DNA of 64,000 nt from contig NZ_JAAGKO020000014.1 of NCBI RefSeq assembly GCF_027947535.2, positions 62,001-126,000 of the forward strand, written 5' to 3'. Below, in pieces: positions 21,101-52,300 of the stretch. Both the position numbers and the translations under genes were made by a program. The DNA is from Streptantibioticus silvisoli (GTDB lineage Bacteria; Actinomycetota; Actinomycetes; Streptomycetales; Streptomycetaceae). Each line of letters begins with the position of its first letter. Position 1 is the stretch's first letter. Under the pieces are notes generated by a model. That model searched no databases. It had not been told where the DNA came from and saw nothing but the letters and a program-made list of their open reading frames with translations.

Positions 21101-24100
21101 GACGACCCCGGAGCGGTTCGCGCGTCAACTGCGGGTGAAGGCCGACGGGGCATGTCATCTCGACGAGCTCACCGGTGATCAGGAACTCGACGCGTTCGTG
21201 CTGTTCTCCTCCGGGGCGGCGGCGTGGGGCAGCGGCGGGCAGGCCGCGTACGCGGCGGGCAACGCCTTTCTCGACGCGCTCGCGCAGCACCGCCGTGCGC
21301 GGGGCCGGACGGCGACCTCGGTCGCCTGGGGCTCGTGGGGCGGGACCGGCATGGCCCTGGGCCTGACCGCGGCCGAGCGGGACGGCCTGGACCTGCTGGG
21401 TGTCGTGCCGATGCGGCCCGAGCTGGCGATCGCCGCGCTGCAACGCGCGCTGCACGAGAACGACACGACAGTCGTCGTCACCGACCTCGACTGGAGCCGG
21501 TTCGCTCCGGTGTTCACCGCGGTCCGGCCGAGCGCCCTGCTGTCGGAGCTGGCCGAGGTCGCCGAGGCACTGGGCGGCTCGCGGGTGGACGACGCGAGTT
21601 CCGAGGGGCCGGCGGCGCGACTGGCGGGCCTGTCGCAGGAGCGGCGCCGGGCCGCGTTGCTCGATCTGGTCGGCGCGTCGGCGGCGGCCGTACTGGGGCA
21701 CGCGGCCGGCACGCGGATCGATCAGGACCAGCCGTTCAAGGACCTGGGCTTCGACTCGCTGATGGCGGTCGAACTGCGCAACCTGCTGCAAACCGGCACG
21801 GGGACGAGCCTTCCCGTCGGCCTGGTGTTCGACTACCCGACCGTGAGCCGGCTCGCGGCGCACCTGGCCGGTGAGTTCGGCCAGGCCCGCGCGGCAGAGG
21901 CGGCCGCGGTGCCCGCGCTCGTCCCGGTCACCGGCGACCCCGTCGTCCTGGTCGGTATGGCGTGCCGGTTCCCGGGCGGGGTGGCGGGGCCGGACGACCT
22001 GTGGCGGCTGGTCATCGACGAGACCGACGCCGTCACCCCGTTCCCGGCCGATCGCGGCTGGAACCTGGACGAACTGCTGGGGACGAACGGCCTCGTGGCG
22101 GCCGGCGAAGGCGGTTTCCTCGACGGCGTCGGCGATTTCGACGCGGCGTTCTTCCGGATGTCGCCGCGGGAGGCGCTGGCCACCGATCCGCAGCAGCGGT
22201 TGTTGCTCGAAACCTCGTGGGAAGCGCTGGAACAGGCCGGGATCACGCCCTCGTCGCTGGCGGGCAGTCCCACCGGTGTGTTCGTCGGCGCCTACCAGAC
22301 CGGCTACACCGAACTGGCGTCCCACTCCGGCGAGCAGTCGCAGGGGCATCTGATCGTCGGTGGCGCGGGCAGTGTGATCTCCGGCCGGGTGTCCTACACC
22401 CTCGGGCTGGAAGGCCCCGCGGTGAGTGTCGACACGGCGTGCTCGTCGTCGCTGGTGGCGATGCACCTGGCCGCGCAGGCGTTGCGGACGGGCGAGTGCT
22501 CGCTGGCGCTGGCGGGCGGGGTCATGGTGATGCCCACGCCCGAAGCGTTCGTCGGCTTCACCGCGCAGGGCGCGCTGGCGGCGGACGGCCGCTGCAAGTC
22601 GTTCGCGGACGCGGCCGACGGGACCGGCTGGTCCGAGGGCGTCGGTGTGGTGGTGCTGGAGCGGATGTCGGACGCCCGGCGCAACGGCCACGAGGTGCTG
22701 GCGGTCCTCCGGTCGAGTGCGGTCAATCAGGACGGTGCGTCGAACGGTCTGACGGCGCCGAACGGTCCGTCGCAGCAGCGCGTGATCCGGCAGGCCCTCG
22801 CGGCGGCGGGTCTGTCCACCTCGGACGTCGACGCGGTCGAGGCGCACGGCACGGGGACGAAGCTGGGTGACCCGATCGAGGCCGACGCGCTGCTGGCGAC
22901 CTACGGTCAGGACCGGCCCGGGGACCGGCCGTTGTGGCTGGGGTCATTGAAGTCGAACATCGGGCACGCCCAGGCCGCCGCCGGCGTCGGCGGCGTGATC
23001 AAGATGGTGCTGGCGCTGCGGCACGGGGTGCTGCCGAAGACGCTGCACGTGGACGAACCGTCGGCCCAGGTGGACTGGGCGCGAGGCGACGTCCGGTTGC
23101 TGACCGAGGCTGTCGCGTGGCCGCAGACCGGCCGCCCGCGACGGGCCGGGGTGTCCGCGTTCGGGGTCAGCGGCACCAACGCGCACGTGATTCTCGAAGC
23201 CCCGCCCGAAGAGTCCGGCGTCCCGGCGCGGCAGCCGTCCGCCGAGGACGGTGTCGTGCCGTGGGTGCTGTCCGGGAAGTCGGCCGGGGCCGTCCGGGAG
23301 CAGGCGTCCCGGTTGCTGGAGCACGTCGGCGCCGATCCGTCGCTGCGTCCCGTCGACGTGGCGTGGTCGTTGCTCGGCTCGCGGGAGGTGTTCGACCACC
23401 GGACGGTGGTCGTGGGCGCCGACCGGGACGAACTGCTGGCCGGTCTGCGCGCGGCGGCTGCCGGCCGGCCGTCGCCGGGCGTGGCCCGAGGCGTCGCCCG
23501 CTCCGGCGGTGGCGTGGTGTTCGTGTTTCCGGGCCAGGGTGCGCAGTGGGTGGGGATGGGCCGGGAGTTGCTGGTGTCGTCGCCGGTGTTCGCGGGGTCG
23601 ATGCGTGAGTGCGGGCAGGCGTTGGCGCCGTTCGTGGACTGGTCGCTGGAGCAGGCGCTCGGTGACGAGGTGGCGTTGGGGCGGGTGGATGTGGTGCAGC
23701 CGGTGTTGTGGGCGGTGATGGTGTCGCTGGCGGCGGTGTGGCGGTCGTTCGGTGTCGAGCCGGCGGCGGTGGTGGGGCATTCGCAGGGTGAGATCGCCGC
23801 CGCGTGTGTCGCCGGTGGTCTGTCGTTGGCGGACGGGGCGCGGGTGGTGGCGTTGCGCAGCCGCGCGATCGCCGAACAGCTCACCGGCGGCGGGATGGTC
23901 GCGCTGCCGATGCCGGCCGGACAGGTGCGCGATCTGCTCGCGGATCACCCGGAGGTGTCGCTGGCCGCGATCAACGGGCCGTCGTCGACCGTCGTCGCGG
24001 GCGAGGCCGGCGCCCTGGAGCGGCTGCTGGCCGACTGCCGCGAGCGGGAGATCCAGCCGCGCAGGATCGCCGTGGACTACGCGTCGCACTCCCGGCTGGT

Positions 24101-27100: not shown

Positions 27101-30100
27101 CGGCATCACCGCGTTCCCCGCCGACCGCGGCTGGGACCTGGAGGCACTGCGGGGCACCGAAGGGCCCGGCACCGGGACGTCGGCCACCGGCCGCGGTGGT
27201 TTCCTCGACGGGGCCGGTGAGTTCGACGCGGCGTTCTTCCGGATCTCGCCGCGGGAGGCGGTGGCGACCGATCCGCAGCAGCGGTTGCTGCTGGAGGTGT
27301 CGTGGGAAGCCCTGGAGCAGGCGGGAATCGATCCGACCTCGCTGGCGGGCAGCTCGACCGGGGTGTTCGCGGGCGTCTACTCCTCGAACTACGCCAACCT
27401 GGTCGCCCGCGGTGGTGAGCACTTGCAGGGGCACCAGATCACGGGCGGGGCGGCCAGTGTGATCTCCGGCCGGGTGTCCTACACGCTGGGGCTGGAAGGC
27501 CCCGCGGTGAGCGTGGACACCGCGTGCTCGTCGTCGCTGGTGGCGATGCACCTGGCCGCGCAGGCGTTGCGGGCGGGTGAGTGCTCGCTGGCGCTGGCCG
27601 GCGGCGTCACGGTGATGGCCACCGCTGACGCGTTCGTCTGGTTCACCGCGCAGGGCGGACTGTCGCAGGACGGCCGGTGCCGGTCCTTCTCCGACTCGGC
27701 CGACGGGACCGGGTGGTCGGAGGGGGTCGGTGTCGTCGTGCTGGAGCGGATGTCGGACGCGCGCCGCAACGGCCACGAGGTGCTCGCGGTGCTGCGGTCC
27801 AGTGCGGTCAACCAGGACGGCGCCTCCAACGGCTTGACGGCACCCAACGGTCCGTCCCAGCAACGCGTGATCCGGCAGGCCCTCGCCGCGGCCGGGCTGT
27901 CCGCTTCGGACGTCGACGCGGTCGAGGCGCACGGCACCGGTACGAAGCTCGGCGATCCGATCGAGGCGCAGGCGTTGCTGGCGACCTACGGCCGGGACCG
28001 CGTGGACGGGCAACCGCTGTGGCTGGGTTCGTTGAAGTCGAACATCGGGCACCCCCAGGCCGCGGCCGGCGTGGGTGGTGTGATCAAGATGGTGCTCGCG
28101 TTGCGCCACGGAATCCTGCCCAGGACCCTGCACGTGGACGAGCCCTCGACGCAGATCGACTGGACGCAGGGCGACGTACGGCTGCTGACCGAGGCGATCC
28201 CGTGGCCGGAGACCGGCCGTCCGCGCCGGGCCGGGGTGTCGTCGTTCGGCGTCAGCGGCACGAACGCCCACGTCATCCTTGAGGCGGCGGCTGGCGACGA
28301 GCGCCGTGGTGCCCCGGAAACGCCCGCCGTGCTCACGGCGGCGGTGCCGTGGGCGCTGTCGGGCCGGACGGAGGAGGCCCTGCGGGCGCAGGCCGCGCGG
28401 CTGCTGGACCTCGTGGAGGCGGACCCGGCGCCGCGACCGGCCGACATCGGCTGGTCGCTGGCCGTCTCGCGTACCGCGTTCGACCACCGGGCCGTGGTGG
28501 TGGGCGGCGACCGGGAGGAGCTGATCAGCGGGTTGCGTGCGCTCGCGGCCGGTGAGCCCGGCGCCGGGACCGTCTCGGGCGCCGCGCAGGCCGACGCGCG
28601 GCTCGGGGTGTTGTTCACGGGGCAGGGTGCGCAGCGGGTGGGGATGGCGCGTGGGCTTTATGCGGAGTCGCCGGTGTTCGCGGCGGCGTTGGACGGGGTT
28701 CTCGCGGTGTTGGATCCGTTGCTGGACCGGCCGTTGTGCGAGGTGATGTGGGGTCAGGACGCGGAGTTGGTCGATGAGACGGGGTGGGCGCAGCCGGCGT
28801 TGTTCGCGGTCGGGGCGGCGTTGTTCGAGGTGTTGCGGGCGTTCGGGGTGGCTCCGGACTACCTGCTGGGGCATTCGATCGGTGAGGTGACGGCGGCTTA
28901 TGTGGCGGGGGTGTGGTCGCTGGGTGATGCGTGTCGGGTGGTGGCGGCGCGGGCGCGGTTGATGCAGGCGTTGCCGTCGGGTGGGGCGATGGCCGCGGTC
29001 GGGATGTCCGAGGCCGAGGTCGCGGATCTGCTCCCCGGCGGGGTGTCGGTCGCGGCGGTGAACACCGCCGACTCGGTCGTCCTTTCCGGTCCGCGAGAAG
29101 ACGTCGAGCGGGTGACCGCCGTGGCGGCCGGGCGTGGTGCGAAGGTGACGCGGTTGCGGGTGTCGCACGCGTTCCACTCGTCGTTGATGGAACCGATGCT
29201 GGACGAGTTCGCCACGGTCCTGGAGTCGGTGGAGTTCCGGCCGCCGCGGATCCCGATCGTGTCGAACCTGACCGGTGGGATCGCGGCCGCGCAGGAGCTG
29301 TGCTCCCCGCGGTACTGGACGGAGCAGGTCCGCGGCACGGTGCGATTCGCCGACGGCGTGCGCCTGCTCGCCGACCAGGGTGTGACCGCGCTGGTGGAAC
29401 TGGGTCCTGACGGTGTGCTTTCCGGTGCGGCGCACCACAGTTGCGCACCGGGCACGGTCGTGGCGCCGGTGTTGCGCCACGAGCAGGACGACGCGTCGGC
29501 GGTGCTGTCCGCGGTGGCGCGCCTGTTCGTGCACGGTGTGGCGGTGGACTGGAGCGCGGTGTTCGCGGGCCGGGGCGCGGTGCGGGTGGCGCTGCCGACC
29601 TACGCGTTCCAGCACCAGCGCTTCTGGCCCGACACGGTCGCCGTTGTCGCCGACGTGACCTCGGCCGGGTTGAACCCGGCGCAGCACCCGCTGCTCGGCG
29701 CCGTGGTGCCTTCGCCCACGGACGACGCGATCGTGTTCACCAGCCTGCTCTCGCTGCGCACGCACCCGTGGCTGGCCGACCACACCGTGGGCGGCGCCGC
29801 GGTCCTGCCCGGCACCGCCGGCGTCGAGTTGGCCATCCGCGCCGGCGACAGCGTGGGCTGCGACCGGGTCGAGGAGCTGGTGCTTCGGACGCCGCTGGCG
29901 CTGCCGGCCACGGGAGTCGTCCAGGTCCAGGTCCTGGTCGGTGCGGCCGACGAGGACGCGCGGCGGAGCTTCGCCCTGTACGCGCGGGTGGACGGCGCAC
30001 AGGAGTGGACCCAACACGCCACCGGTCGGCTGGGCACGTCCGCCCGCAGGGCCGGCCCGGACCCGTTCGGCCCGCTGGGCCAGGTCTGGCCCGCGCCGGA

Positions 30101-33100
30101 AGCCGAGGAGATCGACGTGTCCCGGTTCTACGAGCAGCGCGCCGAGTACGGCCCGGTGTTCCAGGGGCTGACCAAGGCGTGGCGCCACGGCGACCGGATC
30201 CTCGCGGAGGTCGAACTGCCCGAGTCCGGCCGTGACGCGGCGCAGTCGTTCGGGCTGCACCCCGCGCTGCTGGACGCGGCACTGCAGACGAGGGCGCTCG
30301 CGGGCGGGGAGGGCGTGGCGTGCGGGTTCCGCGACGTGGATCTGCTCGCTTCCGGCGCGGCCCGGCTCCGGGTCGCACTGACCCCGCAGGGGCCGGACGA
30401 GGTGTCGCTCGCGGTCGCCGATTCGACCGGCTCACCCGTGCTGTCGATCGGCTCCGTGACGCTGCGACCGCCCGAGGCACTCGGCACCGTGGCGGACACC
30501 GGGGACCGTTCGCTGCTCGAGGTCAGCTGGGTGCCGACTCCTGGCGGCGCCGCCCCGGTGGACCGCTGGACCGTCGTCGGACCCGCGGACCCCGTGCCCG
30601 CTCCCGAGGAGGGCGCGGTGGCGCTGCTGCGGGCGTCCGGGGACCCGGCCCCGGTGGTGGACAGCACGCATGAGCTGACCGCCGAGGTTCTCCGGCGACT
30701 TCAGCAGTGGCCGACGGACCCCGCCGGCTCGCCGCTGATCGTGTGGACCCGGGGCGCGGTCACCACCGCACCCGGTGACCCGGTCACGGATCTGGCCGCG
30801 GCGGCCGTGTGGGGCCTGGTCCGGTCGGCGCAGACGGAGGACCCGGGCCGGTTCGTACTGCTCGACACCGACACCGACTCCGGCCCACTCGACGCGACGG
30901 TGCTCGGCGACGTACTGGCCGCGGGTGAGCCGCAACTGGCGCTGCGCGGCGGCCGGCTCCTCGCGGCCCGCCTGATCCGGGCCGGCGCGGGTGACGGACC
31001 GGCGCCGGTGCTGGACCCCGAGGGCACCGTCGTCGTCACCGGTGGCACCGGCGGGCTGGGCGCCCTGGCGGCGCGGCACCTGGTGACCGGGCACGGCGCG
31101 CGGAACCTCCTGCTGGTCAGCCGACGCGGTGCGACCGCCCCGGGCGCGCAGGAACTGCTGGCGGAGCTCGGCGCGTTCGGCGCCACGGTGGTGGTGGCGG
31201 CCTGCGACGCGGCCGACCGGCAGGCGCTCGCCGAGGTGCTCGCCGAGGTCCCGCCGGAGCACCCCGTGACCGGGGTCGTGCACGTCGCGGGCGTCGTCGA
31301 CGACGGTGTGCTCGCGTCGCTGTCGCGCGAACAGCTCGACCGGGTGCTCGCCCCGAAGGTGGACGCGGCCTGGAACCTGCACTCGCTCACCCGGGACCTG
31401 TCGTTCTTCGTGGCCTTCTCGTCGCTCGGCGGCCTGCTGGGCGGCGGTGGCCAGGCCAACTACGCCGCGGGCAACACGTTCCTCGACGCACTGATGCAGC
31501 AGCGCCGCCAACAGGGGCAGCCGGGCATGTCGCTGGCCTGGGGACCGTGGTCGACGGAGCACGGCATGGTGAGCTCCCTGTCCGGCACCGACCGGCGCCG
31601 GATCGCGCGCTCGGCCACCCCGCCGATGTCGGTGGAGCAGGGCATGGAGCTGTTCGACCGGGCGTTGCGCGCGGACCGCCCGCTGCTGGCGCCGACCCGG
31701 CTGGACATGGCGACGCTGCGGGCCCAGCGGGACATCACGCCGCTGTGGCGTTCCCTGGCCGGGGCCGCGGCGCGGCGCGTGGCGGACAACACCGACGGCG
31801 GCGGGGACGGCCTGGGCCGTCGGCTGGCCGGACTGTCCGGTGCGGACCGGCTGGAGGCGCTGGCCGACCTGGTCCGCGAGGCCGCCGTGACGGTGCTGGG
31901 ACACGCCCCGGGCGAGCGGTTCGACATCGCGCAGCCGTTCCGCGAGCTGGGCTTCGACTCGCTGACCGCGGTCGAGCTGCGCAACCTGCTGCAAGCCAGA
32001 ACCGGCGTCGCCCTGGCGGCCAGCCTGGTGTTCGACCACCCGACCGTCGGTCACGTCGCGAGGTACCTGGCAGCCGAGTTCGGCACGCAACCGGCCGAGG
32101 CCGTCGTGGCGCCGGCTCTCGTGTCCGTCACCGACGATCCGATCGTGCTGGTGGGCATGGGGTGCCGGTTCCCGGGCGGCGTCTCGGGCCCGGACGACCT
32201 GTGGCGGCTGGTCGCCGAGGGGACCGACGGGGTCACGCCGTTCCCGGTCGACCGCGGCTGGGATCTGGACTCGCTGCTGGGCAGCGGCGGCCCGGGCACC
32301 GGGACGTCCGCGACCGGCGAGGGCGGCTTCCTCCCGGAGAGCGGCGAGTTCGACGCGGCGTTCTTCCGGATCTCCCCGCGGGAGGCGCTGGCCACCGACC
32401 CGCAGCAGCGGCTGCTGCTGGAGGTGTCGTGGGAGGCGTTGGAACACGCGGGCATCGACCCGAGTTCGCTGGCGGGCAGTGCGACCGGCGTGTTCACGGG
32501 CGTCTACCAGACCGGTTACGCCGAACTGGTCGCGCGGGGCGAGGAGCAGCTGCAAGGCCATCTGCTCACCGGCGCGGCCGGAAGCGTGGTGTCGGGGCGC
32601 GTGGCGTACACGTTCGGCTTCGAAGGTCCTGCGGTGAGTGTGGACACGGCGTGTTCGTCGTCGTTGGTGTCGATGCACCTGGCGGCGCAGGCGTTGCGGT
32701 CGGGGGAGTGCTCGCTCGCCCTCGCCGGCGGTGTCACGGTGATGGCCGCGGCGGACATGTTCGTCCGGTTCACGATGCAGGGTGGTCTGGCTGCGGATGG
32801 TCGGTGCCGGTCGTTCTCGGATGATGCGGGTGGGACCGGGTGGGCCGAGGGTGTGGGTGTGGTGGTGCTGGAGCGGTTGTCGGACGCCCGGCGCAACGGC
32901 CATGAGGTGTTGGCCGTATTGCGGTCGAGTGCGGTGAATCAGGATGGTGCGTCGAACGGTTTGACGGCGCCGAATGGTCCGTCGCAGCAGCGGGTGATCC
33001 GGCAGGCGTTGGCGGCGGCGGGTCTGGCCACGTCGGACGTGGACGTGGTCGAGGCGCACGGTACGGGTACGCGGCTGGGTGATCCGATCGAGGCGCAGGC

Positions 33101-36100
33101 GGTGCTGGCGACGTACGGTCAGGACCGGCCGGCGGATCGGCCGTTGTGGCTGGGCTCGTTGAAGTCGAACATCGGGCACGCGCAGGCCGCGGCGGGGGTC
33201 GGTGGCGTGATCAAGATGGTGATGGCGTTGCGGCACGGGGTGCTGCCGAAGACGCTGCACGTGGCGGAGCCGACCACGCAGGTCGACTGGTCCCAGGGCA
33301 ACGTGCGGCTGCTCGCCGAGGCGATGCCGTGGCCGGAGACCGATCACCCGCGCCGGGCGGGGGTGTCGGCGTTCGGCGTGAGCGGGACCAACGCGCACGT
33401 GATCCTCGAGGCACCTGCCGAAGCCTGCGCGGACGAACCCCCGGCTGTCGAACCCCTGGCTGTCGAACCCCCGGCTGTCCAAACCCCGGCTGTCGGAACC
33501 GTGGCGGGGGAGGAAGCGGCCGAGGCCGATCGCGTGGTGCCGTTGGTGGTGTCGGGTAAGTCGGAGGGTGCGGTGCGGGCTCAGGCGGCGCGGTTGGTGG
33601 AGTTCTGGGAGGGGTGTCCGTTGGTGGGTGGGGTGGATGTGGGGTGGTCGTTGGTGGGTTCGCGGGCGGTGTTCGATCATCGGTTGGTGGTGGTGGGTGC
33701 TGGTCGGGGTGAGTTGTTGGCGGGGTTGGGTGTGGGTGCTGTTGGTGGGTCGGGTGTGGGGGTGGTGCGGGGTGTGGCGGGGGTGGGGTGCAGGCCGGTG
33801 TTCGTGTTTCCGGGTCAGGGTGCGCAGTGGGTGGGGATGGGTCGGGAGTTGTTGGTGTCGTCGCCGGTGTTCGCGGGTGCGATGCGTGAGTGCGGGGAGG
33901 CGTTGGCGCCGTTCGTGGATTGGTCGTTGGAGCAGGTGTTGGGTGATGAGGTGGCGTTGGGGCGGGTGGATGTGGTGCAGCCGGTGTTGTGGGCGGTGAT
34001 GGTGTCGTTGGCGGTGTTGTGGCGGTCGTTCGGTGTTGAGCCGGCGGCGGTGGTGGGGCATTCGCAGGGTGAGATTGCGGCGGTGTGTGTTGCTGGTGGT
34101 TTGTCGTTGGGTGATGGGGCGCGGGTGGTGGCGTTGCGTAGTCGGGTGATTGCTGAGGAGCTTGCCGGTGGTGGGGGGATGGTGGCTTTGCCGTTGTCGG
34201 TGGGTCGGGTTGAGGAGTTGTTGGTGGGGCGGGTGGGGGTTTCGGTGGCGGCGGTGAATGGGCCGGGGTCGGTGGTGGTGTCGGGTGAGTCGGGTGCGTT
34301 GGACTGTCTGGTTGCTGATTGTGAGGGGTTGGGGGTTCGGGTGCGGCGTATTGCGGTTGATTATGCGTCGCATTCGAGTGTGGTGGAGGGGGTCGAGGGG
34401 CGGTTGTTGGCGGATTTGGCTGTGGTTGTTCCGCGGTCGTCGGTTGTTCCGGTGTTTTCTTCGGTGACGGGTGGGGTGGTGGATACCGGGGAGTGGGATG
34501 CCGGTTATTGGTATCGGAATCTGCGGGAGACGGTGCGGTTCGAGGAGGCGTTGTCGGCCGCGTTGGATGTGGGTGATCGTGTAGTGGTCGAGGTGAGTCC
34601 GCATCCGGTTCTGGTGCCGGCCATGCAGGACGTGGTCGACGGCCGTGAGGGCGCGGTGCCGGTCGTGGGCACGCTGCGGCGCGGTGAGGGGTCTTTGCAC
34701 CGCATGATCACCGCGGCCGGCCAGGTATACGCCCATGGCGTGGCCGTGGACTGGACGACCATGTTTGCGGACTCCGGCGCGCGGCGCGTCCAGCTCCCGA
34801 CCTACGCCTTCCAGCATCAGCGCTTCTGGCCGCAGAGCGCCGGCGGGACGACCGACGTCGGCGCCGCCGGGCTCACGGCGGCGGAGCATCCGTTGCTGGG
34901 GGCGATGCTGTCGTTGCCGCAGAACGACGAGGTGGTCTTCACCAGCAGGCTGTCGGTGCGGACGCATCCCTGGCTGGCGGACCACACCGTGCGCGATGCG
35001 GTGCTCTTCCCCGGCGCCGGGTACGTGGAGCTGGCGATCCGCGCGGCCGACAGCGTCGGCTGCGACCGGCTCGACGAGCTCGTCCTTGAGGCGCCGCTCG
35101 TGCTGCCTGCCTCAGGCGGCGCGCAGGTGCAGGTGGTGGCCGGGGCGGACGACGCGGAACGGTGCGGTGTCACGGTGTACGCGCGGGTCGACGGCGAGGA
35201 GACCTGGACCCGCCACGCGACCGGTGTCGTCAGCGCGTCCGCCGCCGGCGACGGGGCCGACGACGCGTTCGAACCCTTCACCCGGGAGTGGCCCGCTGCG
35301 GACGCCGTACCGCTGGAGACCGAGCAGTTCTACCAGCAGCTGGCCGACGGCGGGTTCCTGCGCTACGGCCCGGTGTTCCAGGGGCTGCGCAAGGCATGGC
35401 GGAGCGGGGAGCGGATCCTTGCCGAGGTCGAGCTGCCGGAGTCCGCCCGTGCTTCGGCGGAGTCGTTCGGCATTCATCCGGCGCTGCTGGACGCGGCACT
35501 GCACACCACGGTCTTCGCCGGTCTCGACGCGGCCGAGCAGGGCGGGCTGCCGTTCAGCTTCACCGACGTACGGCTGCGCGCCTCGGGTGCGTCGCGGCTG
35601 CGGGTCGTACTCACCCGGACCGGCCCGGACCAGGTCGCCATCGCGGTCGCGGACAGCGCCGGCGCTCCCGTGCTGTCGATCGGGTCGCTGGCCGTGCGGG
35701 CGTTCGCCTCGGACGGTTTGACGGCCGGCGCCGGCGACGGGGCCGTGTTGCGGACGCAGTGGCTCGAGACCGGGCCCGGCGCGGGCGACCCGACGGTTGA
35801 CTGGGTCACCGTCGCCCCCCGTGGCGCGGACCACCCCGACCTGAGCGCGGTCGGTGCCGCGCTCGACGCGGGAAGGCCGGCGCCGGGAGCGGTCGTGCTG
35901 GCCGTGGCCGGCGGACCGGACCCGGTGGTTCGCTCCACGCACGAGCTCACCGGCTGGGTGCTGCGGCAGTTGCAACACTGGCTGGGCGAGGCGAGGTTCG
36001 CGTCGATCCCGCTGGTGGTGTCGACCCGGGGCGCGGTGTCCGTGCACACGGGCGAGCCGGTGACCGACCTGGCCGCGGCCGCGGTGTGGGGTCTCGTGCG

Positions 36101-39100
36101 GTCGGCGCAGTCGGAGAACCCGGACCGGATCGTGCTGGTCGACATCGGCACGGGCACGGGCTCCGGCTCCGGCACCGGCGCGGACACGGACACGGACACC
36201 GGCACCGGCGCGGACACCGGCACCGGCACAGGCACGGACACGGACACCGGCACCGGCACGGACACCGGCACCGGGCTCGACGCCGGTGCGCTGGGCGCGA
36301 TCCTGGCGTCCGGCGAGCCGCAGTGGGCGGTACGCGGCGGGCGGTTCCACACCGCACGGCTCGTCCGGGTCCGGCCGGCCGACGAACTGGTCGCACCGGC
36401 AGACGTGCCCTGGCGGCTGGACTCCACGGACAAGGGCATGCTCGAGAACCTGGTGCTCGCACCGGCTCCGGAGTCGGCCGATCCGCTGGCACACGGGCAG
36501 GTTCGCGTCCAGGTCCACGCGGCGGGCCTCAACTTCCGCGACGTGCTCAACGCGCTCGACATGGTCAGCGACGTGCGCGCGGCGGGCCCGCTGGGCAGTG
36601 AGGTCGCCGGTGTCGTCACGGAGGTCGGTCCCGGTGTGCCGGACCTGCGGCCCGGCGACCGGGTCATGGGCCTGGCGTTCGGCGCGTTCGGTCCGGTGGC
36701 GGTGACCGACCACCGGCTGCTGGCGAGGATCCCCGAGGGCTGGTCGTTCGCCACCGCGGCGTCGGTTCCCGTCGTGTTCCTGACCGCCTACTACGGGCTG
36801 CTGGATCTCGCCGGGCTGGAGCCCGGCGAGTCGGTGGTGGTCCACGCCGGCGCCGGCGGTGTCGGACTCGCGGCGATCCAGCTGGCACGCCACCGGGGCG
36901 CGGAGGTCTACGCCACGGCGAGCGAGGGCAAGTGGGGTGTTCTACGGGAATGGGGAGTCCCGGCCGAGCGGCTGGCGTCGTCCCGGGATCTCACCTTCCG
37001 GGAGCGTTTCCGGGCCGCTACCGCGGATCGGGGTGTGGACGTGGTCCTGAACTCCCTCGCGGGGGAGTTCGTGGACGCGTCGGTGGATCTGCTGGCTGCG
37101 GGCGGGCGGTTCCTGGAGATGGGCAAGACCGACATCCGATCGCCGGAGGACTTCCGTGACCGGCCGTCGAGCTACCGGGCCTTCGACCTGATGGAGGCCG
37201 GCGCCGACCGGATCCAGCAGATGCTGCGGGAGCTGGTGGCGCTGTTCGAGGCCGGCGTGATCCGGCCGCTGCCGGTGGCGGCGTGGGATGTGCGCCGGGC
37301 ACCGGAGGCGTTCCGGTTCATGAGCCAGGCCAGGCACGTCGGCAAGCTGGTGCTGACGGTCCCGCAGCCCCTGGCGCAGGCCGGCACCGTGCTGATCACC
37401 GGCGCCGGTGGTCTCGGTGGCGTGGTGGCGCGGCACCTGGTGACCGAGCACGGGGTGCGGAACCTGCTGCTCGTCAGCCGCCGCGGCGCCGCCGCGCCGG
37501 GCGCCGCGGAGCTGACCGCCGAACTGGCGGGACAAGGGGCCCGGGCGACGTTCGCCGCCTGCGATCTGACCGACAGGCGGGCGCTGGCCGCGGTGGTCGA
37601 CGCCGTGGGACCGGAGCATCCGCTGACCGCCGTCGTGCACACAGCCGGGATCTTGGAGGACGGGATCATCGGCTCGCTGTCGCAGGAGCAGCTCGATCGG
37701 GTGCTGGCGCCGAAGGTCGACGCGGTCTGGAACCTGCACGAACTGACCCGCGCGCACGGCCTGTCCCGGTTCGTGGTGTTCTCCTCGCTGGCCGGACAGG
37801 TCGGGAACAGCGGGCAGGGCAACTACGCGGCGGGCAATGTGTTCCTCGACAGCCTGATGGCGCGCCGCCGCGCCGAGGGGCTGCCCGGGCAGTCGATGGC
37901 CTGGGGCGCCTGGACGACCGACGTCGGCCTGGTGGGGACCCTGTCCGATACGGATCTGCGCCGCATCGCCCGGTCGGCCATGCCGCCGCTGGGTGTGGAG
38001 CAGGGCATGAACCTGTTCGACCGGGCGTGGGACTCGGGCGCCGCGGTGCTGGGGCTGGCCCGGCTCGACGTCCGGGCGCTGCGCGCCCAGCGGGACATCG
38101 CGCCGCTGTGGCGGTCGCTGGCCGGCCACGCGGCGCGGCGCTCCGCCGACAACACGCAGGGTGGCCGCGACGACTTGGCGCGGCAGCTCACCGGGATGTC
38201 CACCGCGGACGGGCTGGCGACCCTCGTCGAGCTGGTCCGCGAGGCCGCGGCAGCGGTGCTCGGCCACGCGTCGGGCACGCAGATCGATACCGCGCAGCCG
38301 TTCACCGAGCTGGGCTTCGACTCGCTGACCGCGGTCGAGCTGCGCAACCTGCTGCGGGCCAGGACCGGAGCGAGCCTGCCCGCGAGCCTGGTGTTCGACT
38401 ACCCGACCGTCGGTCACGTCGCGAGGTATCTGGCGGGCGGGTTCGACGACACCCGCCCGGCCGGCCCGGCTCCGCTGCCGCTACCGGTCCCCGTCACCGA
38501 CGACCCGATCGTCTTCGTCGGGATGGCGTGCCGCTTCCCCGGTGGGGTGGCGGATCCGGACGACCTGTGGCAGCTGGTCGCCGACGGAGCCGAGGGCATC
38601 ACGCCGTTCCCCGCCGACCGCGGCTGGGACCTCGACGCGGCGCTCGGCGCCTCGGCGACGGGCGAAGGCGGCTTCCTGGCCGGCGTCGGCGAGTTCGACG
38701 CGGCGTTCTTCCGGATCTCCCCGCGGGAGGCGCTGGCCACCGACCCGCAGCAGCGGCTGCTGCTCGAGACCTCCTGGGAGGCGCTGGAACGTGCCGGGAT
38801 CGACCCGAACTCGCTGGCGGGCAGCCGGACGGGGGTGTACGTCGGCGCGTATCACATGGGGTACAGCGAACTGGTCGCCCGCGGCGGTGAACAACTGCAG
38901 GGCCACCAGATCACCGGTGCCGCGACCAGCGTCATCTCGGGCCGGGTGTCCTACACCCTTGGGCTGGAAGGTCCTGCGGTGAGTGTGGACACGGCGTGTT
39001 CGTCGTCGTTGGTGTCGATGCACCTGGCGGCGCAGGCGTTGCGGTCGGGGGAGTGCTCGCTCGCCCTCGCCGGCGGCGTGTCCGTGATGGCGTCGGCCGA

Positions 39101-42100
39101 CGCGTTCGCCTTGTTCACGATGCAGGGTGGCTTGGCGGCGGACGGTCGGTGCCGGTCGTTCTCGGATGATGCGGGTGGGACCGGGTGGGCCGAGGGTGTG
39201 GGCGTGGTGGTGCTGGAGCGGTTGTCGGACGCCCGGCGCAACGGCCATGAGGTGTTGGCCGTGTTGCGGTCCAGTGCGGTGAATCAGGATGGTGCGTCGA
39301 ACGGTTTGACGGCGCCGAATGGTCCGTCGCAGCAGCGGGTGATCCGGCAGGCGTTGGCGGCGGCGGGTCTGGCCACGTCGGACGTGGACGTGGTGGAGGC
39401 GCACGGTACGGGGACGAAGCTCGGTGATCCGATCGAGGCGCAGGCGGTGCTGGCGACCTACGGTCAGGATCGGCCGGCGGATCGGCCGTTGTGGCTGGGG
39501 TCGTTGAAGTCGAACATCGGGCACGCCCAGGCCGCCGCCGGCGTGGCGAGCGTGATCAAGATGGTGATGGCCTTGCGGCACGGGGTGCTGCCGAAGACGC
39601 TGCACGTGGCCGAGCCGACCACGCAGGTCGACTGGAGCCAGGGCGAGGTGCGGCTGCTGACCGAGTCCGTCCCGTGGCCGGAGACCGATCACCCGCGACG
39701 GGCCGGGGTGTCCGCGTTCGGCGTCAGCGGCACCAACGCGCACCTCATCCTCGAAGCGCCCGCCGGCGACGGATCCGGACCGGGCGCCCCGCCCGCGGAG
39801 CCGTCCGGTGTCGGCGACTTCGCCGCGGACCCTGTCGTGCCGTTGGTGGTGTCGGGTAAGTCGGAGGGTGCGGTGCGGGCTCAGGCGGCGCGGTTGGTGG
39901 AGTTCTGGGAGGGGTGTCCGTTGGTGGGTGGGGTGGATGTGGGGTGGTCGTTGGTGGGTTCGCGGGCGGTGTTCGATCATCGGTTGGTGGTGGTGGGTGC
40001 TGGTCGGGGTGAGTTGTTGGCGGGGTTGGGTGTGGGTGCTGTTGGTGGGTCGGGTGTGGGTGTGGTGCGGGGTGTGGCGGGGGTGGGGTGCAGGCCGGTG
40101 TTCGTGTTTCCGGGTCAGGGTGCGCAGTGGGTGGGGATGGGTCGGGAGTTGTTGGTGTCGTCGCCGGTGTTCGCGGGTGCGATGCGTGAGTGCGGTGAGG
40201 CGTTGGCGCCGTTCGTGGATTGGTCGTTGGAGCAGGTGTTGGGTGATGAGGTGGCGTTGGGGCGGGTGGATGTGGTGCAGCCGGTGTTGTGGGCGGTGAT
40301 GGTGTCGTTGGCGGTGTTGTGGCGGTCGTTCGGTGTTGAGCCGGCGGCGGTGGTGGGGCATTCGCAGGGTGAGATCGCGGCGGTGTGTGTTGCTGGTGGT
40401 TTGTCGTTGGGTGATGGGGCGCGGGTGGTGGCGTTGCGCAGTCGGGTGATTGCTGAGGAGCTTGCCGGTGGTGGGGGGATGGTGGCTTTGCCGTTGTCGG
40501 TGGGTCGGGTTGAGGAGTTGTTGGTGGGGAGGGTGGGGGTTTCGGTGGCGGCGGTGAATGGGCCGGGGTCGGTGGTGGTGTCGGGTGAGTCGGGTGCGTT
40601 GGATTGTCTGGTTGCTGATTGTGAGGGGTTGGGGGTTCGGGTGCGGCGTATTGCGGTTGATTATGCGTCGCATTCGAGTGTGGTGGAGGGGGTTGAGGAG
40701 CGGTTGTTGGCGGATTTGGCTTTGGTTGTTCCGCGGTCGTCGGTTGTTCCGGTGTTTTCTTCGGTGACGGGTGGGGTGGTGGATACCGGGGAGTGGGATG
40801 CGGGTTATTGGTATCGGAATTTGCGGGAGACGGTGCGGTTCGAGGAGGCGTTGTCGGCTGCGTTGGATGTGGGTGATCGTGTGGTGGTGGAGGTGAGTCC
40901 GCATCCGGTTCTGGTGCCGGCCATGCAGGACGTGGTCGACGGCCGTGAGGGCGCGGTACCCGTCGTGGGTACGCTGCGGCGCGGTGAGGGGTCTTTGCAC
41001 CGCATGATCACCGCGGCCGGCCAGGTATTCGCCCATGGCGTGGCCGTGGACTGGACCAAGGTGTTCGCGGGCCGGGACGCCGTGCGGGTACCGCTGCCCA
41101 CGTACGCGTTTCAGCACGAGCGCTACTGGCCCGACCCCGAACCGCTCGCCGCGCAGGTCGCGGTGGATCCGGCCGACGAGCGGTTCTGGGCCTCGGTGGA
41201 GCAGCAGGACCTGCGGTCGGTGGCCGAGACGCTCGGGCTGGACAGCACCGTGGTCGCGGCCATGGTGCCGGCGCTGGCGTCGTGGCGTGCCCGCCGCCGG
41301 GACGAGAACGCGGCCGACGGCTGGCGCTACCGGGAGGCGTGGAAACCACTCGGTGGCAACCACTTCCCGGTGATCTCCGGACGCCGGCTGGTCGTGGTCC
41401 CGGCCGGCAAGAGCGACGACGCCTGGGCGAGCCACGTGGCCGCCGCGCTCGGCACGGACACCGTCGTGGTGGAGCACGGCGACGACGCGGCGTTGAGCGG
41501 CGGGCTGCGGGCCGCGCTCGACGCCGACGTCCCGGTGACCGCCGTGCTGTCCCTCACCGCGGCGCTGGAACCGGATCCGACCACCGCGCTCGCGGACACC
41601 ATCGCCCTCCTGCGGGCACTGCGCGACACCGGTGCGCCGCCACTGTGGGTGGCGACCCGCGGTGCGATCTCGGTCGGCAGCCAGGATCCGGTGACGGCCC
41701 CGGGGCAGGGCGCCGCGTGGGGCCTGGGCCGCGTCGCCGCGCTGGACCAGCCCGGTCTGTGGGGCGGTCTGGTCGACCTGCCCGAGATCCTGGACAAGCG
41801 AAGCGCGCGCCTGGCCACCGCGGTGGTGTCGGGCACCTCGGGTGAGGACCAGGTGGCCGTGCGCCCGTCGGGGTTGTTCGGCCGACGGCTGGTCCACGCG
41901 CCGGCGCCCCGGCCCCGTGCCGAGGCGTGGACGACCTCGGGGACGGCGCTGATCACCGGTGGCACCGGCGGGCTGGGCGCGTACGTGGCCCGGTGGCTGG
42001 TGGAGCGGGGCAGCGACCACCTGGTGCTGGTGAGCCGGCGCGGCCCCGACGCCGAGGGCGTGGAACAACTACGGCTGGAACTGGAGGTCGCCGGCGCCGA

Positions 42101-43158: not shown

Positions 43159-46100
43159 ATGACCGCGTCTGTGGAGAAACTGACGGAGGCCCTGCGTGCT
43201 TCACTGCTGGCCAACAAACGGCTGAAGCAGGAGAACAAAACCCTGACCGGGGTGGCGCACGACCCGGTCGTCCTCGTCGGGATGGCGTGCCGGTTCCCGG
43301 GCGGTGTGCGGGGGCCGGAGGACCTGTGGCGGCTGGTCGCCAACGGAGCCGAGGGCATCGGCCCGTTCCCCCGGGACCGAAGCTGGGACCTCGACGCCCT
43401 GCTGGGCACCGACGGCCCCGGCTCCGGGATCTCGGCGACGGGCGAGGGCGGGTTCCTCGACGGGCCGGGTGACTTCGACGCGGCGTTCTTCCGGATGTCG
43501 CCGCGGGAGGCGCTGGCGACCGATCCGCAGCAGCGGCTGCTGCTGGAGGTCTCGTGGGAGGCGCTGGAACACGCCGGGATCGATCCCTTGTCGCTGGCCG
43601 GGAGCCGGACCGGGGTGTTCGCCGGCGTCTACCAGTCCGGCTACAACGAACTGCTCTCGCGTGCCGACGAGCAACTGCGCGGTCACCAGATCACCGGTGG
43701 CGCGCCGAGCGTGATCTCCGGCCGGGTCTCCTACACCCTCGGGCTGGAGGGCCCCGCGGTCAGCGTGGACACCGGCTGCTCCTCGTCCCTGGTCTCGATG
43801 CACCTGGCCGCCCAGGCACTGCGGGCGGGGGAGTGCACACTGGCGCTGGCCGGCGGGGTCGCGGTGATGGCCGCCTCCGACGCGTTCGTCGGGTTCACGG
43901 CGCAGGGCGGCCTCGCCACCGACGGCCGGTGCAAGTCCTTCGCCGACGCCGCCGACGGAACGGGATGGTCCGAGGGCGTCGGGATCGTGGTGATGGAGCG
44001 GCTGTCCGACGCCCGCCGCCACGGCCACGAGGTGCTGGCGGTGTTGCGTTCGAGCGCGACCAACCAGGACGGCGCCTCCAACGGCCTGACCGCGCCGAAC
44101 GGTCCGTCGCAGCAACGCGTGATCCGGCAGGCGCTGACCGCCGCCGGTCTGTCCACCTCGGACATCGACGCGGTGGAGGCCCACGGCACGGGAACGAGAC
44201 TGGGTGACCCGATCGAGGCGCAGGCGCTGCTGGCGACCTACGGTCAGGACCGCCCCGAGGGCCGGCCGCTGTGGCTCGGCTCGCTGAAGTCCAACATCGG
44301 CCACACCCAGGCGGCCGCCGGTGTCGGTGGCGTGATCAAGATGGTCATGGCGCTGCGGCACGCAGTGCTGCCGAAGACGCTGCACGTGGACGCGCCGACC
44401 ACCCAGGTCGACTGGACCCAGGGCGACGTGCGCCTGCTGACCGAATCCCGGCCCTGGCCCGAAAGCGGCCACCCCCGGCGGGTCGGGGTGTCGTCGTTCG
44501 GCGTCAGCGGAACGAACGCGCACGTGATCCTCGAAGCGCCCGCCGGCGCCGGCCCGTCCGCCGCCGCCCCGGTTGGCCCCGGTGTTTTCGGCGCCGCGGG
44601 CGTGGTGCCCTGGATCGTGTCGGGGAAGACCGAGGACGCGTTGCGCGCTCAGGCGGCGAAACTGCTGGCGCATCTGACAGCGGATCCGGCGCCGGATCCG
44701 GTCGACGTGGGCTGGTCGTTGCTCACCGCACGGGCGAGGTTCGAGCACCGCGCCGTGCTGCTGGGCACCGAGCGCGACACATTGCTGACCGGGCTGAGGG
44801 CTGTCGCGGCCGGTGAATCCGCTCCGGGGGTGACGGTCGGCATCGCGGCCGAGGACAACCGGCTGGGCGTGCTGTTCACGGGGCAGGGTGCGCAGCGGGT
44901 GGGGATGGCCCGTGAGTTGTACGACGGTTCGCCGGTGTTCGCGGGAGCGTTGGACGAGGTTCTCGCCGCGCTGGATCCGTTGCTGGACCGGCCGTTGCGT
45001 GAGGTGATGTGGGGCCGGGACGCGGAGCTGATCCATGAGACGGGGTGGGCGCAGCCGGCGTTGTTCGCGGTCGAGGCGGCGTTGTTCGAGGTGCTGCGCG
45101 CCGTCGGCGTGACCCCGGATTTTCTGCTCGGGCATTCGATCGGTGAGGTGACGGCCGCCTACGTCGCCGGGGTGTGGTCGCTCGGTGACGCGTGCCGGGT
45201 GGTCGCGGCGCGGGCGCGGTTGATGCAAGCGCTGCCGTCGGGTGGGGCGATGGCGGCGATGTCGCTGCCGGAGGCCGAAGTCGTCGGGCTGCTGCCGGAG
45301 AGCGTGTCGGTCGCGGCGGTCAACACCGCGGATTCGGTGGTGGTCTCCGGGCCGCGCGAAGCCGTGGACGGTGTCGTCGAGGTCGTGTCCGGGCAGGGGC
45401 ACCGGGTGTCGCGGCTGCGGGTGTCGCACGCGTTCCATTCGTCGTTGATGGAGCCGATGCTGGCGCAGTTCCAGCAGGTTCTGGAGTCGGTGAGCTTCGC
45501 GCCGCCGCGGATCGCGGTGGTGTCGAACCTGACCGGGGTCCGGGCGACGGACGGCGAGTTGTGTTCCCCGCAGTACTGGACCCGTCAGGTGCGGTCGGCG
45601 GTGCGGTTCGCCGATGGCGTGCGCTGGTTGGGCGAACAAGGTGTCACGGCGCTGGTCGAGCTCGGGCCGGACGCGGTGCTGTCGGGCCTGGCACGGCAGA
45701 GCTGCCCGCCGCAGACCGTCGTCGTGCCGTTGCTGCGCCGCGAACAGGACGACGTGCCGGCCCTGGCGTCGGCGTTGGCTCGGCTGTGCGCGCAGGGCGT
45801 CGAGGTGGACTGGACCACGCTGTTCGCCGGCCGTGCCGTCACGCGGGTGCCGCTGCCGACCTACGCCTTCCGGCACCAGCGGTACTGGCGCACCTCCGGC
45901 GGTTCGGCCGACGTCCCGGCGGCCGGCCTGACGGCGGCGGAGCATCCGCTGCTGGGCGCGATGCTGTCGTTGCCGCAGACGGACGGGCTGGTGTTCACCA
46001 GCCGGCTCTCGGTGCGCGCCCACCCCTGGCTCGCGGATCACGCGGTGCGCGGCGCCGTGGTGTTCCCCGGCGCCGGTCTCGTGGAGCTGGTGATCCGCGC

Positions 46101-49380: not shown

Positions 49381-52300
49381 GTGGCCGACGACCCGATCGT
49401 GCTGGTCGGGATGGCGTGCCGGCTCCCGGGCGGGGTCATGGGGCCGGACGATCTCTGGCGGCTCGTCAGTGAGGCGGGGGACGGGATCGGCCCGTTCCCG
49501 GTCGATCGCGGCTGGGACCTGGACGAGCTGGTGGGCCCGGCCGGGACCGGCAGGTCGGCCACCGGCGAGGGCGGCTTCCTCGCGGGCGCCGACGAGTTCG
49601 ACGCGCCGTTCTTCCGCATCTCGCCCCGCGAGGCGGTGGCGTCGGACCCGCAGCAGCGGTTGCTGCTGGAGGTGTCGTGGGAGGCGCTCGAGCAAGCGGG
49701 CATCCTCCCCGAAACGCTGGCGGGCAGCCGGACGGGGGTGTACACCGGCGCCTACCAGATGGGCTACGGCGAACTGGTCGCCCGGTCCGACGACCAGCTG
49801 CGAGGACACCAGATCACCGGCGGCGCGACCAGCGTGATCTCGGGCCGGGTCGCCTACACGCTCGGCCTGGAGGGGCCGGCGGTGAGCGTGGACACGGCGT
49901 GTTCGTCGTCGCTGGTCGCCATGCACCTGGCGGCGCAGGCGCTGCGCGCCGGTGAGTGCTCGCTGGCTCTCGCCGGCGGTGTCACGGTGATGGCCACCCC
50001 GGAGGCGTTCGTCGGGTTCACGATGCAGGGCGGGCTGTCCGCGGACGGCCGGTGCAAGTCGTTCTCGGACGACGCCGACGGGACCGGCTGGTCCGAAGGC
50101 GTGGGCGTGGTGGTGCTGGAGCGGATGTCGGACGCCCGGCGCAACGGCCACGAGGTGCTGGCGGTCCTCCGGTCGAGTGCGGTGAACCAGGACGGTGCGT
50201 CGAACGGTCTGACGGCGCCGAACGGTCCGTCCCAGCAGCGGGTGATCCGGCAGGCCCTCGCCGCGGCGGGGCTGTCCACCTCGGACGTCGACGTGGTCGA
50301 AGCGCACGGCACCGGTACGCGGCTGGGTGATCCGATCGAGGCCGACGCGCTGCTGGCGACGTACGGCCAGGACCGGCCGGAAGACCGCCCGTTGTGGCTG
50401 GGCTCGCTGAAGTCCAACATCGGGCACGCGCAGGCGGCCGCCGGTGTCGCGGGCGTGATCAAGATGGTCCAGGCGATGCGGCACGCGGTACTGCCGAAGA
50501 CCCTGCACGCCGAGCGGCCGACCACGCGGGTGGACTGGACGCGGGGCGAGGTGCGGCTGCTGACCGAGGCGATCCCGTGGCCGGAGACCGGGCGTCCGCG
50601 CCGGGCCGGGGTGTCGTCGTTCGGCGTCAGCGGCACGAACGCCCACGTCATCCTTGAGGCCCCGCCCGCAACCGACACGCCGCACGAGACCGCGCCGGGT
50701 ACCGGTGTGGTCGGCGCCGGCGGTGTGGTGCCGTGGGCGCTGTCGGGCCGGTCGGACGAGGCGGTGCGGGCGCAGGCCGCCCGGTTGCTGGAGTACGTGG
50801 AGGGCGCCCCCGCGCTGCGTCCCGTCGACGTGGGCTGGTCGCTGGCCGTCTCGCGTACCGCGTTCGACCACCGGGCCGTGGTGGTGGGCGGCGACCGGGA
50901 GGAGCTGATCAGCGCACTGCGTGCGGTCGCCGGCGGTGCGCCCGGTGTCGTGCGGGGCCCGGCTCGCAGCGGGGAGCGACTGGGCGTGTTGTTCACGGGG
51001 CAGGGTGCGCAGCGGGTGGGGATGGCGCGTGGGCTTTATGCGGAGTCGCCGGTGTTCGCGGCGGCGTTGGACGGGGTTCTCGCGGTGTTGGATCCGTTGC
51101 TGGACCGGCCGTTGTGCGAGGTGATGTGGGGTCAGGACACGGAGTCGATCGATGAGACGGGTTGGGCGCAGCCGGCGTTGTTCGCCGTGGAAGCGGCGTT
51201 GTTCGCGGTGCTGCGGGCGTTCGGTGTGACTCCGGACTACCTGCTGGGGCATTCGATCGGTGAGGTGACGGCTGCGTACGTGGCGGGGGTGTGGTCGCTG
51301 GGTGATGCGTGCCGGGTGGTGGCGGCGCGGGCCCGGTTGATGCAGGCGTTGCCGTCGGGTGGGGCGATGGCCGCGGTCGGGATGTCCGAGGCCGAGGTCG
51401 CGGACCTGCTCCCCGGCGGGGTCTCGGTCGCGGCGGTGAACACCGCGGACTCGGTGGTGGTCTCGGGGCCCCGGGACGAGGTCGACCGGGTGGCCGAGGT
51501 GGCGGTCGAGCGCGGTGCGAAGGTGACGCGGTTGCGGGTCTCGCACGCGTTCCACTCGTCGTTGATGGAACCGATGCTCGACGAGTTCGCCACGGTCCTG
51601 GAGTCGGTGGAGTTCCGGCCGCCGCGGATCCCGATCGTGTCGAACCTGACGGGGATGCGGGCGTCCGACGAAGAGTTGTGTTCGCCGGAGTACTGGGTGC
51701 GGCAGGTGCGGTCGGCGGTGCGCTTCGCCGACGGCGTGCGCTGGCTGGGCGAGCAGGGCGTCACCACGATGGTCGAGCTGGGTCCGGACGGAGCGCTCTG
51801 CGCATTGGCGCAGCACAGTTCGACCGTGGCCGCCGTGCCGCTGCTGCGCCGGCAGAAGGCCGGCGGGCAGTGCGACTCGGGCCTGGTGCTGTCGGCGATC
51901 GGGCAGTTGTCCGCCCACGGCGTGGCAGTGGACTGGACCACGGCGTTCGCCGGTCGTGGCGCGGTCCGGGTCCCGCTGCCGACGTACGCCTTTCAACACC
52001 AGCGGTACTGGCCCGACAGGGCGCAGGCCGCCCCGCGACCGGCCGAGGACCGGACGGACCGGCGGTTCTGGGCTTCGGTCGAACACCAGGACGTGCCGGA
52101 TCTGGCCACGATGCTGGGACTCGACGGCGGTGTCGTGGCGCCGGTCGTGTCCGCGCTGGCTTCATGGCGGGCCCGCCGGCACGAACAGTCCCTGGTGAAC
52201 GGCTGGCGCTACCGCGAGGCGTGGAAACGGCTGGCCGTCACGGGAGCGCCGCAAGCCGGACGGTGGCTGGTCGTGGTCCCGGAAGGCGCGCGCGACGACG

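Follow-up and report, generated by a model that had tools for sequence, protein, structure and literature searches.

The 64,000-nucleotide stretch of Streptantibioticus silvisoli DNA analyzed here (contig NZ_JAAGKO020000014.1, positions 62,001 to 126,000; hereafter the window) encodes a modular polyketide synthase (PKS) of the cis-acyltransferase (cis-AT) type, and the AT domains of its modules 5 and 6 lie on two near-identical tracts whose third codon positions are rich in G and T and poor in C. We regard these twin tracts as a strong example of a pair of genetic repeats of intense nucleotide skews (GRINS), a described class of recoded repeats that copy themselves, and are highly confident that they are best explained jointly as a GRINS pair, as the product of intragenic AT conversion and as a native keto recoding of the coding strand that took place in situ. 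Passages of two papers describe GRINS as actinobacterial regions of about 1 kb that are more than 90% identical to a second region within one cis-AT PKS, and as elements thought to accelerate the swapping of AT domains, which sets polyketide structure, and the diversification of related clusters (PMC10394414, PMC9899208). While this kind of element is already known, the quantitative picture of its recoding is new here. The abstract of the 2021 paper on GRINS reportedly gives their origin as unknown, and our search of the literature on GRINS and GT-rich PKS recombination listed no paper on the mechanism, although the 2021 paper's own discussion may contain parts of the analysis below. The counts given here narrow this origin: the process looks neither like import nor like deamination or codon choice acting alone, and it is constrained by a coding-strand lock, by amino acid changes and by saturation.

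The window contains an open reading frame (ORF) of 10912 amino acids (10401-43139), a second PKS ORF ending at 60291 and a third that runs past the window end. Ketosynthase (KS), AT, dehydratase (DH), ketoreductase (KR), enoylreductase-type and acyl carrier protein (ACP) domains are present in the first two, and both tracts correspond to the Acyl_transf_1 AT domains of modules 5 and 6 (E ~1e-85). A preliminary description of this DNA had reported about 18 differences between 33537-34755 and 39837-41055 at a fixed offset, and the exact count is 18 in 1219 nt at a constant offset of 6300 nt. In the codon-wise alignment the shared block comprises 33525-34765 and 39825-41065 on the plus strand (1241 nt, 97.8%), that is, the KS-AT linker, a methylmalonyl-type AT and the post-AT linker in either copy. 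Since 15 of the 18 differences are synonymous and only 3 nonsynonymous (chance of so many synonymous changes 1e-6), and synonymous divergence (dS 0.047) far exceeds nonsynonymous divergence (dN 0.003), the AT5 and AT6 tracts appear to be genuine separate copies that have diverged under purifying selection. The first 764 nt hold only 5 of the 18 differences (p 0.003), consistent with either repeated conversion or a shortage of mutable sites where the skew is strongest. AT3, AT5, AT6 and AT9 carry the GHSQG and YASH signatures, which we take to mark methylmalonyl-CoA specificity, and this substrate is thus predicted for all four.

To describe composition we use K4, the share of keto bases (G or T, as opposed to the amino bases A and C) at four-fold degenerate sites. 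Change-point analysis delimits recoded cores at 33536-34481 in module 5 and 39839-40919 in module 6, where K4 amounts to 99.1% (n = 216) and 98.7% (n = 238), compared to 53-76% in the flanks, which bears out the G/T-rich and C-poor third positions noted earlier. Four-fold sites of the module 5 core are 74% G, 25% T, 1% C and 0% A, whereas PKS1 overall has 55, 6, 36 and 2% G, T, C and A, respectively. The skew profile along PKS1 that had been proposed as a check reveals sharp GC and TA skew over both tracts; per 150 nt, the values range from +0.53 to +0.71 (GC) and from +0.56 to +0.77 (TA) between 33600 and 34499, and in module 5 they are down to +0.09 and +0.20 at 34650. The module 6 core extends 138 nt beyond that of module 5, and each of the five differences within 34481-34619 pairs an A or C of module 5 with a G or T of module 6. 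Ordinary ATs, compared for polarizing, mostly carry C at the sites of the 18 differences.

For the GRINS test we took regions of at least 500 bp with more than 80% (often more than 90%) identity within the same PKS, employing BLAST instead of the pairwise aligner of the original paper, and the cut-offs for both GC and TA skew that are given in passages of the later papers (0.15 in PMC9899208, 0.25 in PMC10394414). Regions 33531-34820 and 39801-41090 (~1290 nt) have a mean identity of 0.97 and GC/TA skews of 0.52/0.56 and 0.54/0.58, above both cut-offs. Their host is an assembly-line PKS of the usual cis-AT kind, with KS, AT, DH, KR and ACP domains in the 10912-amino-acid ORF, and the mosaic identity of its KS and AT domains points to conversion between modules. 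Nothing categorically different from described GRINS was found; the present pair is strongly skewed, although a few ATs of other genomes equal it. Modules 3 and 6 of the azalomycin F PKS likewise bear two near-identical GRINS, as far as the relevant passage describes them, but share a KS-AT-DH-KR tetradomain, whereas the near-identity of the present pair ends at the AT edges and its KS patches are weaker (PMC9899208). A common skew has similarly been read as recent assembly-line duplication in the desotamide/wollamide genes, which, according to the section concerned, are nonribosomal peptide synthetase genes with adenylation domains, unlike the PKS ATs studied here (PMC9205934).

The near-identity of AT5 and AT6 does not continue into the rest of the modules. 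In 150-nt windows of the codon-wise alignment, modules 5 and 6 are 74-99% identical in the KS, 94-99% in the AT and 45-67% after the AT. Module 5 shows 0.79/0.85/0.85 to module 9 and 0.74/0.87/0.74 to module 6 in the first three KS windows, so that KS5 is nearer KS9 than KS6 in two of these three. Because identity drops after the AT and early KS5 is partly nearer module 9, module duplication is disfavored, and the sequence comparison supports intragenic gene conversion as the probable source of the AT5/AT6 near-identity. The conversion proposed earlier thus gains from the mosaic KS/AT identity, while 'recent' remains a relative term that here stands for the dS given above. The C-terminal halves of KS5 and KS6 are also 96% alike (32768-33190 and 39113-39535), a point absent from the preliminary description; the aligned KS5 stretch spans 32768-33299 (plus strand) with two blocks of ~96% identity to KS6 and weaker skew, its KS6 counterpart 39113-39644 (plus strand).

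Shorter blocks link the tracts to further modules. We searched 11 ATs (AT2-AT12, with AT1 and the loading AT excluded) from seeds of 93% identity over 75 nt and found shared blocks of 284 nt (AT3/AT5), 162 nt (AT3/AT9), 109 nt (AT5/AT9) and 77 nt (AT9/AT11) in domains that, the AT5/AT6 pair excepted, are otherwise 67-78% alike. A second block network joins the malonyl-type ATs 2, 4, 7, 8, 10 and 12. The AT3 patch (23514-23797, plus strand) is 93.3% identical to AT5 with skews of +0.44/+0.52, compared to 67% in the remaining AT3 domain; 47 of its 51 four-fold sites equal AT5 and 48 are keto, whereas outside the patch these numbers are 43 and 47 of 90, i.e. the skew of AT3 is concentrated in the converted patch. 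The AT9 patch (55638-55799, plus strand) is 93.8% identical to AT3 and includes a 109-nt stretch (55667-55775) that is 90.8% identical to AT5 and AT6. The fragments in AT3 and AT9 that had been pointed out before are therefore real, the AT3, AT9 and AT11 blocks speak for the patch-wise spreading envisaged with them, and the breakpoint comparison among ATs proposed at the time yielded mosaic patches and, for AT5/AT6, a codon-wise block that ends at the AT edges. Such conversion edges at AT boundaries are exchange points used by nature.

We further considered misassembly or whole-module duplication, which we judge extremely improbable. The genome is a draft of 130 contigs, which leaves room for an assembly artifact, but the 18 differences with their excess of synonymous changes argue against it, the longest difference-free run of 224 nt would be short enough for ordinary read pairs, and a one-contig genome, G009, holds four near-identical saturated ATs as well. 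A module duplication is at odds with the diverging flanks.

The preliminary description had seen in the tracts a foreign-looking segment, which would have entered from a donor with G/T-ending codons and then spread. The composition, sharply unlike that of the flanks, is in line with this proposal, but we consider it very improbable. In a tree of 106 methylmalonyl ATs, built by a quick method from 20 ATs of this genome and 86 others selected for closeness to AT5, the ATs 3, 5, 6, 9 and 11 of this PKS form one clade (Shimodaira-Hasegawa-like approximate likelihood ratio test, SH-aLRT, 98), in which the AT5/AT6 stem (0.33) is longer than the tips of AT3, AT9 and AT11 (0.20-0.27, plus 0.076 common to those three). 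The donor search that had been called for gave no candidate: among the matches listed for this genome and 60 relatives, the best long DNA matches outside the pair reached 74% over ~1.1-1.2 kb, and short ones up to 89% over 44 nt inside the genome and 83% over 121 nt outside; protein matches in other species were 51-65% identical (best 80 loci kept, 578 relatives). Neither search turned up a donor PKS or a closely related cluster, and the closest relatives were not found outside the host lineage, where those of recently acquired foreign DNA would lie. The genome's own PKSs, by contrast, hold dozens of like tracts: skewed regions of at least 500 bp number 53 in 416 kb of PKS-bearing stretches versus 6 in 614 kb of other stretches, where the two sets overlap by 20 kb just before PKS genes, the second set was unscreened for PKS genes and one of its six regions is a FabF-like KS gene. 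Since the AT clade is native and similar tracts recur in the genome's PKSs, the keto tracts most likely arose within this gene family and not from a foreign donor. To accommodate the 20 ATs with K4 of at least 0.80, the label has to change 11 times along the tree, and well-supported branches force no fewer than 5 of these changes, whereas shuffled labels need 18.7; the high-keto label thus appears clustered, as near copies produce, yet of several origins, and judging from the tree, ATs just as extreme evolved independently in other actinobacteria.

Recoding is directional, from A/C to G/T on the coding strand, comprises transversions as well as transitions and changes amino acids too. We counted changes on the AT5/AT6 stem where AT3 and AT9 agree, with the pooled AT3, AT9 and AT11 branches as controls. 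Of 28 four-fold C, 16 became G, 9 became T and 3 were kept, C to G thus exceeding the controls (35/105, p 0.03), while of 65 four-fold G only 3 became C and 2 became T (G to C in controls 38/221). C changed to T at 20 of 29 two-fold sites versus 7 of 106 in controls (p 1e-11). At codon positions 1 and 2, amino-to-keto changes amounted to 69/282 versus 78/860 (p 3e-10) and keto-to-amino changes to 11/421 versus 84/1258 (p 0.001). We extended this count to 174 ingroups, drawn from the 260 ATs of this genome, 13 relatives and 80 species loci after removal of near copies and of ATs that lacked suitable sisters. For every neutral change (G/T or A/C), the number of amino-to-keto changes increases from 1.44 in the K4 bin of 0.5-0.6 (27 ingroups) to 4.02 at K4 of at least 0.87 (11 ingroups), and keto-to-amino changes fall from 1.46 to 0.96, a drop that may partly be masking by later reconversion. 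Between the same bins four-fold C to G increases from 0.30 of 755 to 0.68 of 304, while CGG to AGG, which exchanges one amino base for another, shows no rise. The loss of C at four-fold relative to two-fold sites is 2.1-3.9 fold, as determined with split halves, since grouping windows by the K4 that they themselves show would be circular. Because C goes to G beyond the controls at four-fold sites, we rejected cytosine deamination alone as the explanation. K4 also correlates with the identity of the best in-genome paralog (rho 0.56, n = 180 ATs).

The recoding saturates at approximately 79% G and 20% T. Seven ATs from four genomes with K4 of at least 0.97 together have 1149 G, 291 T, 20 C and 0 A at 1460 four-fold sites, and the choice between G and T follows the usual lean of each codon family (Gly 50% T and Ser 5% T at K4 of at least 0.9, compared to 16% and 2% at 0.5-0.6). 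At two-fold sites of the same seven ATs, Phe codons keep C (TTC) in 32 of 66 cases and other codons in 15 of 156. Four of the seven belong to G009, where ATs 97-99.9% identical (C1:7955001-7990000) have two unrecoded ATs as neighbors.

The recoding is locked to the coding strand. Among 260 ATs, 85 are GT-skewed and none is CA-skewed on this strand, the corresponding numbers among 228 KS domains are 3 and 0, and the sign of the skew tracks the strand of the PKS genes on each contig. The ATs of another genome (G026) taken for a comparison of strand and replication were not keto-rich. The FabF-like beta-ketoacyl-ACP synthase gene mentioned above (NCBIfam, Pfam), which we read as a type II PKS KS, lies ~19 kb upstream of the window and is keto-skewed in its leader and 5' part (C37:42840-43700). 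Its GC/TA skew is 0.43/0.67 in the 300 nt before the start codon and 0.44/0.27 in the first 300 nt, and is gone by 600-1200. A relative on contig C60 of the same genome has 0.44/0.58 and 0.44/0.35 in these parts; it is a broken fragment (83% over 547 nt) adjoining a stretch that is 96% alike and carries a SARP-type regulator, and the 66 coding differences between the two copies, 33 amino-to-keto and 23 keto-to-amino, have little direction. Both skews exceeded 0.25 in no part of any of 29 homologs from other genomes of the family (~70-78% identity), which are the best-scoring loci given for the 185 of 200 searched genomes that yielded a match.

Since the skew is present in an untranslated leader, codon choice is disfavored as its cause. 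This also bears on selection on mRNA structure or translation, an improbable alternative: the predicted mRNA folding energy does weaken from about -529 kcal/mol in synonymous recodings to -310 kcal/mol in the core, but amino acids are altered too, and recoding is absent from most windows of 100 codons in these PKS genes.

The folding comparison rests on 20 synonymous recodings of the 945-nt core with the codon usage of this PKS and on predicted energies. For single-stranded DNA (ssDNA), the coding strand of the core is predicted at -74 compared to -236 +/- 8 kcal/mol in the recodings and the template strand at -44 compared to -182 kcal/mol, while the natural sister sequences AT3 and AT9 have folding energies about equal to those of the recodings or stronger. 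The recoding is thus predicted to remove about two thirds of the ssDNA folding energy. The G-quadruplex-type motif reported at 33747-33772 (plus strand) is present, but it is within what composition leads to expect: the core has 2 motifs, the codon-permutation mean is 2.0, and 161 of 200 permutations reach 2, so we rejected a G-quadruplex as functional element. Trinucleotides of the TGG family occupy 261 of 943 positions in the core, compared to a mean of 161 in synonymous recodings and 249 +/- 5 under codon permutation, a small excess over the latter. According to the relevant part of PMC3763553, RecA filaments reach their highest stability on TGG repeats, where dissociation is slower and nucleation is not enhanced. 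The core resembles this TG-rich/TGG ssDNA, a functional analogy only, as the preference in that part of the study was measured with purified RecA in vitro and without a link to PKSs (PMC3763553). By this analogy, a feedback between recoding and conversion through an unfolded, RecA-friendly strand is plausible.

We propose that intragenic conversion probably transferred a copy of one methylmalonyl-type AT cassette, from the KS-AT linker to the post-AT linker, between modules 5 and 6, that shorter pieces may have reached, or come from, AT3 and AT9, as their mosaic identity suggests, and that the keto composition would have developed in situ within the AT lineage native to this PKS. Because of the coding-strand lock and the skewed untranslated leader in one gene, we lean towards a transcription-linked directional process as the driver, which conversion between paralogous domains would amplify and spread. 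A strand of keto bases, folding less and resembling GT/TGG-rich DNA on which RecA is stable, could in turn raise further conversion.

In concrete terms, mutagenesis of the exposed non-template strand during transcription, e.g. by R-loops, base loss and translesion synthesis turning C and A into T and G, is quite possible, if short of an even chance. The strand lock, the skew of the FabF-like KS gene that fades along the gene, the change of C to both T and G and the flat CGG-to-AGG rate are consistent with it. It nevertheless requires targeting to duplicated AT/KS tracts, plain deamination misfits the C-to-G excess, and the retention of TTC in Phe codons is a context effect it does not account for. 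Keto-biased conversion or selection, in which unstructured GT-rich strands are better substrates and keto variants win, strikes us as possible but rather unlikely. On the stem and per neutral exchange alike, keto-to-amino changes look suppressed besides the raised amino-to-keto changes, the skew tracks paralog identity and converted patches, and the predicted folding collapse and the RecA preference described in part of PMC3763553 are in its favor. A strand-neutral preference, however, predicts some CA-rich coding strands, of which there are 0 in 260. The suppression was also rejected as proof of fixation bias, as a late burst would mask such changes; G-to-T is raised (47/113 neutral changes vs 51/304), as a two-step path would have it.

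Recent changes likewise argue against biased fixation. We polarized 101 tips from 13 genomes by two near copies each (82-99.5% identity) and binned them by the sisters' keto content. The per-site ratio of amino-to-keto to keto-to-amino changes at four-fold sites rises with this content from 0.59 to 4.2 and amounts to 15 for the 5 tips of the top bin, whose interval is open, and at codon positions 1 and 2 it goes from 1.03 to 1.54 but is 0.65 in the top bin, a weak bias. The net flux in recent tips is keto loss, with 81 gains versus 145 losses at four-fold sites where the sisters' K4 is 0.75-0.82. This pattern resembles recoding in bursts with a slow decay afterwards, or a bias that falls just short of holding its level.

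Several points weigh against our overall interpretation. Keto losses exceed gains at four-fold sites (114 vs 63) even at sisters' K4 of 0.82-0.90, i.e. keto recoding is not visibly advancing now. The AT3 patch matches 145 ATs of other genomes at a mean of 0.63 of four-fold sites, but the best of these (0.93) equals its match to AT5 (0.92). The AT tree was built by a quick method with other-species ATs chosen by closeness to AT5, and the GRINS definition is second-hand, from passages of two papers citing the 2021 description (PMC10394414, PMC9899208).

A more far-reaching possibility, which we hold to be unlikely, is a base-composition drive: one near-irreversible amino-to-keto process on the coding strand with a common end point attained in several lineages (the G and T shares given above), in which unfolded recoded alleles are favored donors and which also reached the FabF-like KS gene and its leader. 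If this were true, GRINS would be selfish conversion cassettes inside antibiotic synthases.

Five malonyl-type ATs and two KS regions, missed by the preliminary description, also pass the looser skew threshold. On the plus strand, these ATs are AT4 (28551-29420; identity 0.91, skews 0.27/0.34), AT8 (50751-51800; 0.89, 0.26/0.31) and AT7 (44841-45440; 0.89, 0.25/0.34), together with the weak cases AT2 (19071-19790; 0.92, 0.19/0.29) and AT10 (62001-62840; 0.87, 0.18/0.26). Intensely skewed tracts lie at four of eight examined PKS-contig ends (C61 base 1, C84 end and both ends of C114), as if the assembly broke at GRINS. Module 5 also holds a tandem 24/48-nt repeat with strongly reversed TA skew (36141-36274). 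Genes for a 3-hydroxyacyl-CoA dehydrogenase (1708-2574) and an FkbH-domain protein (3691-5022) lie near the PKS, and AT1 carries an FAGH signature (14355), which together presumably indicate a methoxymalonyl-type extender unit.

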